From NCBI GenBank assembly GCA_017473225.1, contig JAFUMG010000033.1, positions 1-40,354 of the forward strand: a stretch of DNA of 40,354 bases. The letters are read 5' to 3'. The notes under the pieces are model-generated. The model made no database searches. It was not told where the DNA came from and worked only from the letters and a program-made list of their open reading frames with translations. A program made the translations under genes and the position numbers. Below are positions 17,418 to 20,563 of the stretch, piece by piece. The stretch comes from Oscillospiraceae bacterium (GTDB taxonomy: Bacteria > Bacillota > Clostridia > Oscillospirales > Oscillospiraceae). Numbering within the stretch: position 1 is the first letter of the stretch; each line of letters starts with the position of its first letter.

Positions 17418-18212
17418 TCAGGAAAGGATCGCGCGGTCGCTGGCAAATTCCTTGCCGCTGGCCTGCACGAACATGTTCAGCAGATCCTCAACGGTCAGCT
17501 TCTTCTTCTCCTCGCCTTCCACATCCACGACGATATGGCCGTCATACATCATGATCAGACGGTTGCCATGGGCAATGGCGTCCTTCATGTTGTGGGTGAT
17601 CATCAGGGTGGTCAGCTTGTTCTCAGTGACGATGCGGTCGGTGATCTCCAGCACCTTGGCTGCAGTCTTGGGGTCCAGGGCCGCGGTGTGCTCGTCCAGC
17701 ATCAGCAGCTTGGGCTTGTTCATGGAGGCCATCAGCAGCGTCAGCGCCTGACGCTGGCCGCCGGACAGCAGACCCACCTTGGTGGTCAGCCGGTTCTCCA
17801 GACCCAGATCCAGGGTCTCCAGGAGCCTCTTATACTCCTCACGCTCCGCCTTACGGACGCCCCAGACCAGCTTGCGCTTCTTACCGCGGCGGGCGGCGAT
17901 GGCCAGATTCTCCACGATCTCCATATCGGGCGCGGTGCCCTTCATGGGGTCCTGGAACACACGGCCCAGGAACGCGGCCCGCTGATGCTCCGGCATATGG
18001 GTCACATCCACGCCGTCGATCTCAATGGTGCCGTAGTCCGGCTTCCAGACGCCGGCGATGGCGTTCTGCAGGGTGGACTTACCGGCGCCGTTGCCGCCGA
18101 TGACGGTGACGAAATCGCCGTCCTTCAGATGGAGGTTCAAGCCGTCCAGCGCCGTCTTTTCATTGATGGTGCCGGGGTTGAAGGTCTTGTGCAGGTCAGT
18201 GATCTTAAGCAT
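17418..18212 (-). CDS. ABC importer ATP-binding protein (TrpZ-like)
   Basis: 264 residues, a single ATPase domain: Walker A GGNGAGKST (39-47), signature LSGGQRQALTLL, Walker B LLMLDEHTAALD and a switch His in MITHN. It energises uptake together with the permease and binding lipoprotein encoded upstream. The set matches the family represented by TrpXYZ. ATG at 18212 is chosen (MLKITDL) because GGAG is 9 bases upstream; the ATG three codons earlier abuts that site. The first 8 bases overlap the permease end, indicating coupled translation. Substrate: see the T-box leader, which points to phenylalanine. Confidence 0.92.
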   Translation of the reverse strand: MLKITDLHKTFNPGTINEKTALDGLNLHLKDGDFVTVIGGNGAGKSTLQNAIAGVWKPDYGTIEIDGVDVTHMPEHQRAAFLGRVFQDPMKGTAPDMEIVENLAIAARRGKKRKLVWGVRKAEREEYKRLLETLDLGLENRLTTKVGLLSGGQRQALTLLMASMNKPKLLMLDEHTAALDPKTAAKVLEITDRIVTENKLTTLMITHNMKDAIAHGNRLIMMYDGHIVVDVEGEEKKKLTVEDLLNMFVQASGKEFASDRAILS

Positions 18213-19134
18213 GGCCGTCATCTCCTTTCCCGGAAGCCGCTCCGTGGGGATGGGGGACCTTGGGCTTGGAGAAGTACTCCTCCTGCAGATAGGGCACTGC
18301 CAGGAACAGCGCGACGATAATGGCGGAGAGCATCTTCAGATAGTCGGTCTTCAGGCCCAACAGGATGACGAAGTTGTACACGATGTAGTACACGATGCCG
18401 CCACCGATGACGCCGATCAGGCTGACAACGAAATTGGGCTTGATCTTCATGGAAACGGACAGACCGATGAAGATGGCGGCCAGGCCGATGACGATGGCGC
18501 CGCGGCCGTCGTTGATGTTGGCGGAGCCCTTGTACTGGGCCAGCAGGGCACCGGCCAGGGCCACGATGCCGTTGGCGATTCCCAGGCCCAGGACCTGGTT
18601 GAACTTGACGTTGACGCCCTGGGCACGGCTCATGTCGGGATTATCGCCGGTGGACTTCAGGGTCAGACCCACTTCCGTATAGAAGAAGAGATACAGCACC
18701 GCAATGACCACCGCCACGATGATGCCCGCGGAAAGGATCGCGCCGGGGTTGTTGCTCATGTGCAGCAGCAGCTGGTTGGCCCGGGGGTCGATGGCCACAA
18801 GAGACTTGCCGCCCAGGATCAGCAGATTCACGGAATACAGCATCAGCTGCGTCAGGATGCCTGCCAGAATGGAGGGAATACCCAGCGCGGTGTGCAGCAG
18901 GCCCGTCACAACACCGGCCAGCGCGCCCGCGGCAAAGGCAATGAGAATGGAAAGCCAGGCGGGAACGCCCGCACCCAGCAGAACTGCACAAACGCACGCG
19001 CCGGTGCAGATGGAACCGTCAACGGTCAGGTCGGCAATGTCGAGTATTTTGTAGGAGATGTAGACGCCGATCGCCATCAATCCCCAAATAAGCCCCTCAG
19101 CTACCGCACCGGGCAATGCATATAAGAAAGCCAT
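18205..19134 (-). CDS. ABC importer permease (TrpY-like)
   Basis: 309 residues, about eight hydrophobic helices, resembling the branched-chain/ribose-type permease fold (LivH/RbsC-like) of the COG4120 group. Features: AVAEGLIWGLMAIGVYISYK, IADLTVDGS, and NGIVALAGALLAQYKG near the loop that docks the ATPase. Residues after 290 form a short His-rich cytoplasmic tail. ATG at 19134 with GAGGTAAAAG upstream; gap of 22 bases from the binding-protein gene. Middle gene of the operon. Confidence 0.92.
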   Translation of the reverse strand: MAFLYALPGAVAEGLIWGLMAIGVYISYKILDIADLTVDGSICTGACVCAVLLGAGVPAWLSILIAFAAGALAGVVTGLLHTALGIPSILAGILTQLMLYSVNLLILGGKSLVAIDPRANQLLLHMSNNPGAILSAGIIVAVVIAVLYLFFYTEVGLTLKSTGDNPDMSRAQGVNVKFNQVLGLGIANGIVALAGALLAQYKGSANINDGRGAIVIGLAAIFIGLSVSMKIKPNFVVSLIGVIGGGIVYYIVYNFVILLGLKTDYLKMLSAIIVALFLAVPYLQEEYFSKPKVPHPHGAASGKGDDGHA

Positions 19135-19156: not shown

Positions 19157-20080
19157 TTAGTTGGCGGGGACCTCGATGCCCAGCTGCGCGCACAGCTCTT
19201 CGTTGTAGGTGACAGTGGGAGTCAGGGTCATAACCTCGAAGTCGGAAACTTCTTTCTGGCCCAGCAGGATCTGAGCTGCCATCTTGCCGGTCTCAACGCC
19301 CAGCTCATAGTAGTCGATGGACAGAGAAGCATAGCAGACAGCGCCGCCGTAGCTGGTGTAGATGGGGACATTCTGCTCGGTGCAGATGGTGCCGACGATG
19401 GCGTCGTTCTGGGCGACAGTGTTGTCAGAGGGGACGTAAACCGCCTTGCAGCTGCTTGCCATGGAGGTGACCAGAGCCTGCAGCTCGGTGGTCTCGGAGA
19501 AGGTGTAGGCCTCGACCACGATGCCGGCCTCCTCGAACAGGGCCTTGACAGCCTCGTACTGGATCAGGGAGTTGGACTCGTTGGTGCAGTACAGGACGCC
19601 GACCTTATCGCCGGCAACCAGGCCCAGGGTGTCGATCATCATCTGAGCCTGCTTGTCGAAGGGAACGGCGTCAGAGGTGCCGGAGACGTTGGCGGGGATG
19701 GAGCCCGCGAAGGTATCCTCGTAATCGGTCACGGAAGTACCCAGAACGGGGATGGAGGTGGTAGCGTTGGCGGCAGCCAGCAGAGCGGGAGTGGCGTTGG
19801 CCATGATCAGGTCGACCTTCTTGGCGGTGAAGGTGTTGATGACGGTGTTGCAGAGGTTCGCCTCACCAGCCACCTGGGTGTCAAAGTTGACGGTCTTGCC
19901 GGCAGCGGCCATTTCCTCAGTCAGGGCGTCGATGAAGCCCTGGGTGGCCTGGTCCAGAGAATCATGGACCATCAGCTGGCAGATGCCAACACTGTACTCG
20001 GACTTATCACCGCAGCCAGCGAAGCAGCACATGGCGGCAACCAGCGCGATGACGAGAACGATTGAGATCATCTTTTTCAT
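19157..20080 (-). CDS. ABC importer substrate-binding lipoprotein (TrpX-like)
   Basis: 307 residues. Lipoprotein signal with lipobox FAGC (Cys23), then a periplasmic-binding-type fold of the COG2984 (TrpX) group: VGICQLMVHDSLDQATQGF, NTVINTFTAKKVDLIMANAT, GTSVTDYEDTFAG, CKAVYVPSDNTVAQND, YYELGVETGKMAAQILLG. It is anchored outside the membrane and delivers ligand to the permease. ATG at 20080 has GGAGGAAAACAAA before it; an in-frame TTG five codons earlier overlaps that site and is rejected. It is the first gene after the T-box leader. Family membership suggests an aromatic amino acid; the leader suggests phenylalanine. Confidence 0.93.
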   Translation of the reverse strand: MKKMISIVLVIALVAAMCCFAGCGDKSEYSVGICQLMVHDSLDQATQGFIDALTEEMAAAGKTVNFDTQVAGEANLCNTVINTFTAKKVDLIMANATPALLAAANATTSIPVLGTSVTDYEDTFAGSIPANVSGTSDAVPFDKQAQMMIDTLGLVAGDKVGVLYCTNESNSLIQYEAVKALFEEAGIVVEAYTFSETTELQALVTSMASSCKAVYVPSDNTVAQNDAIVGTICTEQNVPIYTSYGGAVCYASLSIDYYELGVETGKMAAQILLGQKEVSDFEVMTLTPTVTYNEELCAQLGIEVPAN

Positions 20081-20140: not shown

Positions 20141-20177
20141 ACAAAACAAAACGCCCCTGTATGAATAACAGGGGCGT
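20141..20177 (-). terminator. T-box terminator 2 (nearest the gene)
   Basis: Arms ACGCCCCTGT (20151-20160) and ACAGGGGCGT (20168-20177); on the minus strand followed by TTTGTTTTG. It is the regulated terminator of the second T-box unit. Confidence 0.9.
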
Positions 20178-20185
20178 AATAGCTA

Positions 20186-20250
20186 CGCGGTACCACTCTG
20201 CTTCGCGGGGGCCTCGCGGCTCCTGCCTCAAAGACTTTCAGGCCGAAAGC
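20186..20250 (-). ncRNA. Second, partial T-box unit (no Stem I)
   Basis: Minus-strand AGAGTGGTACCGCG (20199-20186) repeats the T-box exactly. Before it lies a stem (GCAGGAGCC, GCGA loop, GGCCCCCGC) like the Stem III of the first unit. Only about 65 bases separate it from terminator 1, far too few for a specifier-bearing Stem I. Confidence 0.85.
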
Positions 20251-20255
20251 GGTAT

Positions 20256-20290
20256 CAAAAAAATCGTCCCTGCTGTAAAACAGGGACGAT
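20256..20290 (-). terminator. T-box terminator 1
   Basis: Arms ATCGTCCCTG (20263-20272) and CAGGGACGAT (20281-20290); on the minus strand followed by a run of seven T. Confidence 0.92.
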
Positions 20291-20298
20291 CAATAAAT

Positions 20299-20528
20299 CG
20301 CGGTACCACTCTGCTTTTGCACGGGCCTTGCGGTCCATGCCTCATTAGGCTGAAAAGTCTAAGCGATATAACGGTCGCGCCCGTTGTGCCTACTGAGAAT
20401 TCAACACACTGCTCGTGGAATGAACTTCATCCGGGCCTCGCTGCTGCCTCGCACCCACCGGCAGCTCTCTGAAAGCCTGATCCCCGACTACTCTTTCCGC
20501 TCAAACGCATTTCTGCTTATCAAATTAT
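20299..20528 (-). ncRNA. T-box riboswitch, complete unit with UUC (Phe) specifier
   Basis: The leader of the importer operon. On the minus strand: AAAGAGTAGT at the base of Stem I, the AGAGAGCTGCC ... GGCAGC distal arm, then the specifier side TGAAGTTCATTCC with UUC at 20424-20422 followed by a purine. Then comes a Stem III (GCATGGACC, GCAA loop, GGCCCGTGC) and the T-box AGAGTGGTACCGCG (20312-20299). The acceptor bulge is UGGU, which pairs with a tRNA ending ACCA. Uncharged tRNA should stabilise the antiterminator and switch the importer on. Confidence 0.88.
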
Positions 20529-20534
20529 GCAGTT

Positions 20535-20563
20535 ATGTTATCAGAATTTCATTCATCTGTCAA
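20535..20563 (-). promoter_or_regulatory. Promoter of the T-box/ABC importer operon
   Basis: Minus strand TTGACA (20563-20558), 17 bases, TAACAT (20540-20535). The start near 20528 gives a leader of about 450 bases that fills the gene-free stretch 20081-20607. Confidence 0.85.

Follow-up and report, generated by a model that had tools for sequence, protein, structure and literature searches.

Which amino acid is taken up by an ABC importer that family resemblance would call a tryptophan transporter, if the leader in front of its genes reads a phenylalanine codon? The question is raised by a locus of an Oscillospiraceae bacterium (assembly GCA_017473225.1, contig JAFUMG010000033.1, positions 1 to 40,354; this whole analysed stretch of 40,354 nucleotides is referred to as the window), where an earlier note, made from the sequence letters, had marked positions 20299-20528 as a T-box and proposed phenylalanine uptake under the control of tRNA-Phe. 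The T-box itself stands, but the marked span covers most of its first module only and misses a second one. Control by tRNA-Phe with phenylalanine as a principal cargo is the reading favored here (probability of roughly 0.85; it overlaps with the general aromatic importer discussed below). The part of the leader that contains the specifier comprises the following features:

20535..20563, minus strand: promoter-like site TTGACA-17-TAACAT, second hexamer preceded by TG (match to the consensus only)
20279..20514, minus strand: T-box leader, first module with Stem I, Stem III region and antiterminator (RF00230, 114.7 bits)
20422..20424, minus strand: specifier UUC (Phe) (cmscan alignment, covariation of the adjoining helix, 56 of 57 T-box-bearing clade leaders)
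20305..20308, minus strand: UGGU of the first T-box bulge (sequence and cmscan alignment)

In the cmscan comparison, positions 20514-20279 of the minus strand matched the Rfam T-box family RF00230 over its full length (model positions 1-219; 114.7 bits versus a gathering threshold of 93, E 7.7e-25). The alignment displays the AGUA/GAA motifs and the specifier codon in Stem I, the leader also has an antiterminator whose bulge is UGGN, together with a terminator that competes with it, and the T-box core AGAGUGGUACCGCG places UGGU at 20308-20305 (minus strand). GAUGAA-G-UUC-A is the sequence of the specifier region, in which the family alignment puts UUC at the specifier. By this UUC, in the frame set by the lower helix, the leader is, as judged from its sequence, a Phe-specific T-box, and the importer is almost certainly controlled by tRNA-Phe.

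The specifier is conserved in a clade of 66 importers (the window and 65 loci retrieved by means of its binding protein) that have the pocket loop of this protein in common. A T-box core is carried by 57 of the 66, with UGGU in all 57; UUC was read in 56 of these leaders, the 57th (L076) being cut by the contig end. Thus, the UUC specifier and the tRNA-Phe control claimed by the earlier note were borne out by the covariance alignment, by the leaders of the homologous operons and by matching pheS leaders (see below). The 56 readable leaders divide into GAAG-UUC (32, window included) and GAA-UUC (24); two leader types that differ in the spacing between GAA and UUC hence occur inside one protein clade. 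In eight further clade loci no T-box was seen (L050, one of these, has only 141 bases of upstream sequence), and L039 has a decayed T-box remnant. Permease and ATPase genes come next in all 52 clade loci with more than 2.2 kb of downstream sequence.

Downstream of the first T-box bulge, the leader continues with a tandem arrangement:

20262..20291, minus strand: terminator 1, 13-pair stem followed by a T run (fold of -19.7 kcal/mol)
20178..20261, minus strand: second antiterminator module, lacking a Stem I of its own (identity with the first module at 65 of 91 aligned positions)
20192..20195, minus strand: UGGU of the second T-box bulge (sequence)
20151..20177, minus strand: terminator 2, 10-pair stem with T-rich tail (sequence)

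The two T-box cores are 113 nt apart, the distance from the end of terminator 1 to the second UGGU is 67 nt, and there is one Stem I for both modules, the second (20262-20151) having no room for another. T-boxes with duplicated terminator-antiterminator elements have reportedly been described, and the window leader resembles them in its two antiterminator/terminator modules: two cores and two terminators are served by one Stem I. Two cores approximately 110 nt apart with a terminator after each were found in five clade members (window, L017, L029, L047 and L056), and two modules per leader also occur in distant TrpX-type operons (L280 and L199, both UUC; L224, UAC); L141 and L262 have a second core-like match without terminator and were excluded from this count.

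According to the mechanism proposed, the three-gene importer would be governed by a transcription-attenuating T-box that senses tRNA-Phe. The uncharged tRNA would pair by its anticodon GAA with UUC in Stem I and by its ACCA end with UGGU in the antiterminator, with the result that terminator 1 is not formed; the polymerase would next meet the second antiterminator/terminator pair, which has its own UGGU and lacks a Stem I, and readthrough would have to be won twice. When phenylalanine is plentiful, the charged tRNA-Phe could not hold the antiterminators and transcription would stop. Most simply, the tandem module might reduce leaky readthrough by checking twice.

The cargo has to be approached from the genes. 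All three importer genes lie downstream of the leader and on its strand:

19157..20080, minus strand: binding lipoprotein (PF04392), TrpX-like, with Tyr244 and Tyr257 at the two published selectivity positions (profile and PDB-sequence matches)
18205..19134, minus strand: permease (PF02653)
17418..18221, minus strand: ABC ATPase (PF00005), both assigned by Pfam

The lipoprotein matched PF04392 (ABC_sub_bind) with 136.5 bits (gathering threshold 25.9), and only three distinct PDB sequences were matched at E up to 0.001. These are, as given in the accessible text of PMC6816091, CD0873 of Clostridioides difficile (6HNI, Tyr-bound), VC_1101 (3LKV, Phe-bound) and SP1069 (3LFT, Trp-bound). His39, Thr97, Pro98, Ser136, Asp137, Asp219 and Asn220 of the window protein are identical in all three and invariant in a 19-sequence alignment of relatives. 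In contrast, the first selectivity position (Ala246/Glu263/Ala268 in the solved relatives: Ala in VC_1101 with bound Phe and in SP1069 with bound Trp, Glu in CD0873 with bound Tyr, where it contacts the Tyr hydroxyl according to the same part of PMC6816091) is occupied by Tyr244, and the pocket loop is three residues shorter; in consequence, none of them models the window pocket. All 66 clade members have Tyr at this position, compared with none of 158 other relatives. At the second position, Tyr257 of the window protein agrees with the Phe and Tyr binders, whereas SP1069 has Gln.

The 158 further distinct proteins derive from TrpX-like surveys of 299 and 118 genomes, with sequence stretches for part of the matches listed. 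At least 36 of them have readable T-box leaders (13 UUC, 6 UAC and 17 UGG), which is a lower bound because some weak core-like matches outside the clade were dismissed as T-boxes on visual inspection; specifier labels were set or checked by eye (L166 as UGG, L231 and L280 as UUC), except for L158, which was labelled by pattern match alone. Outside the clade, the Glu/Tyr pocket goes together with UUC (13), UGG (8) and UAC (6), and it is found in all 13 UUC-controlled and all six UAC-controlled relatives. The two CD0873 selectivity residues do not sort the codons of the family, and a prediction of the cargo from them was rejected.

A T-box reports the tRNA that is sensed and not the cargo. The latter is inferred: on account of the leader, phenylalanine is the best single guess, and it is probably the main cargo. 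A phenylalanine importer contradicts little that is known of a family whose members were crystallised with Phe, Tyr and Trp. More tentatively, the operon may encode an ABC importer dedicated to phenylalanine whose pocket differs from those of the solved Phe, Tyr and Trp binders, and the T-box of the window's lineage may act as a two-checkpoint device in which one Stem I-bound tRNA-Phe serves two successive antiterminators, giving a steeper response to starvation.

The strongest competitor leaves the sensing of tRNA-Phe untouched: phenylalanine shortage would be the trigger of a general aromatic importer for Phe, Tyr and perhaps Trp, which overlaps with the favored explanation because phenylalanine would still be a cargo. 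Besides the three ligands seen in the crystal structures, this possibility is suggested by the nearest group outside the clade, in which eight UUC-reading and two UAC-reading relatives are mixed, all with Glu at the first selectivity position (the Tyr-hydroxyl contact of CD0873). It is nevertheless rather unlikely, as all 56 readable clade leaders have UUC and a distinct paralogue in the window genome is under UGG control.

That the operon encodes a tryptophan importer, in keeping with the family name, and has a Phe leader by inheritance or drift, is improbable. The TrpX equivalog NF041285 was indeed the sole NCBIfam match of the lipoprotein at E up to 0.001; however, its 180.5 bits do not reach the cut-off of 390 (which was reached in just two of the 299 surveyed genomes), and PF04392 includes a Phe-bound structure as well. 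The conservation of UUC in the clade and the separate UGG-controlled paralogue also speak against tryptophan, as does Tyr257 in place of the Gln of Trp-bound SP1069 according to the reasoning in the accessible part of PMC6816091, but the latter only weakly because 16 of the 17 UGG-controlled relatives share this Tyr (with eight Glu and eight Ala at their first position).

The bulge does not help to exclude tryptophan, contrary to the assumption of the earlier note that UGGU is an independent site demanding A73 of the tRNA. The tRNA genes of relatives have A73 in 22 of 22 cases for tRNA-Phe and G73 in 11 of 12 for tRNA-Trp (one unclear at a contig end), which agrees with the G73 that the note had stated for bacterial tRNA-Trp; the need for UGGC that it had derived does not hold, since the UGG-reading leaders of the transporter family carry UGGU in 9 and UGGC in 8 of 17 cases, one of the former belonging to the window genome's own paralogue. 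In the available text of the TBDB paper, U is given for this position in 46% of Trp T-boxes and interpreted as G:U wobble. The UUC and UAC leaders outside the clade have UGGU in 19 of 19 cases. A gene for tRNA-Phe or tRNA-Trp was not found in the window genome assembly, which is 78.6% complete. The bulge is consistent with phenylalanine and suits the A73 of the relatives' tRNA-Phe; it adds little more and is no independent proof.

As tRNA-Val has A73, it would likewise pair with UGGU, and the letters of the window also allow the reading GAA-GUU-C with a Val codon; the frame therefore had to be settled. Covariation of Stem I was analysed in an alignment of the 32 GAAG-UUC-type leaders (31 loci and the window; the 24 GAA-UUC-type leaders were left out): The helix that starts one nucleotide past UUC was paired in 96.4% of the cells, with changes on both sides at four of six pairs, and when the partners were shifted by 1 to 3 columns, the share of paired cells over the entire structure fell from 88.6% to 34-46%; the upper helix of Stem I, in the form drawn here, was paired in just 59.5% of the cells. 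The priority that the TBDB paper, in its accessible part, assigns to the second to fourth bases from the end of the specifier bulge corresponds to the UUC frame here. For calibration, the 30 best-scoring pheS loci of the class of the window and the 30 best-scoring valS loci were used. T-box leaders were present at 23 of the 30 pheS loci, 16 of them with GAAG-UUC-N; in the remaining seven, UUC lies by eye at this site or close to it (L315 perhaps one base off). GAAG-UUC occurred in none of the 18 T-box leaders obtained from the 30 best-scoring valS loci with a looser filter; visual inspection of the 16 that passed the stricter filter gave GUA or GUC, with GAAG-GUA or GAAG-GUC in 14 of them. In the window genome itself, the valS leader has GUC according to the cmscan alignment, and the pheS leader, a low match of 58.9 bits, has UUC as read by eye. 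An importer of valine or another aliphatic amino acid under a GUU specifier, for which the position of GUU one base upstream of UUC and a pocket possibly shrunk by the bulky Tyr244 might be adduced, is accordingly very improbable and was rejected, as the pheS and valS leaders contradict it, the order of codon, one nucleotide and helix suits UUC, 24 of the 56 clade leaders are of the GAA-UUC type without any GUU, and GUU accounts for 8% of the Val specifiers in TBDB. As a separate observation, the own pheS T-box (L011, G000 contig C84, 231-542) has an odd Stem I and an apparent inserted inverted repeat between Stem I and the antiterminator.

Among known systems, the trpXYZ operon of Streptococcus suis (PMC9382623, accessible text) is similar in gene family, in the T-box attenuator before the binding-protein gene and in the uptake of an aromatic amino acid; it differs in its Trp T-box with specifier UGG and bulge UGGC (UUC and UGGU in the window) and in the single module described in that text, compared with two here. 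The pheS T-boxes of the same class have the GAAG-UUC signature in common with the window leader (16 of 23) but control a synthetase, not a transporter. A Phe T-box precedes a transporter of the NSS family in the Bacillus cereus group, and phenylalanine transport was assigned from its codon (PMC2494555, available part); the assignment is made in the same way as here, whereas the transporter family is unrelated to the window importer. The table of that paper, as far as accessible, lists Phe under NSS alone and Trp under both ABC and NSS. Parts of PMC9481103 and PMC7778990 were drawn on in addition to these papers and PMC6816091. A Phe-controlled importer of the TrpXYZ type was sought in print and not found, most subscription papers lying outside the search. 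The result is a useful substrate assignment inside known families and not a new kind of system: It provides a likely substrate for an importer clade (65 genome records of gut Clostridia) that, by family tools, would come out closest to a tryptophan transporter, and the specifier codon divides the transporter family into branches under Phe, Tyr and Trp control.

The distribution of these branches was followed on a quick tree of 69 rows, for which the clade was thinned to every third labelled row and other unlabelled rows were picked by hand. The 19 clade rows, all UUC, formed one group (SH-aLRT 100). On this tree, 16 changes account for the labels F, W, Y and none (mean of 32.3 after shuffling) and seven for F alone; as far as the quick tree shows, Phe control of this importer type thus arose more than once or was repeatedly lost. 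The window genome (G000) has three TrpX-like paralogues including the UUC-controlled window importer. The second, on contig C25 (2244-3545; L007, L284), has a T-box with UGG and the bulge UGGU and is, by its leader, a probable Trp-controlled sister importer; such UUC- and UGG-controlled paralogues in one genome lend themselves to testing whether the cargo follows from the T-box codon. The third, on contig C50 (3606-4526; L133, L285), is a binding protein with Glu/Tyr pocket that falls into the sister group of the window clade on the quick tree; a T-box core was not found in the 700 bases upstream. Just upstream of the C25 Trp T-box (L007), there is an AT-rich inverted repeat of short repeated words (AATGCAAAATG-like).
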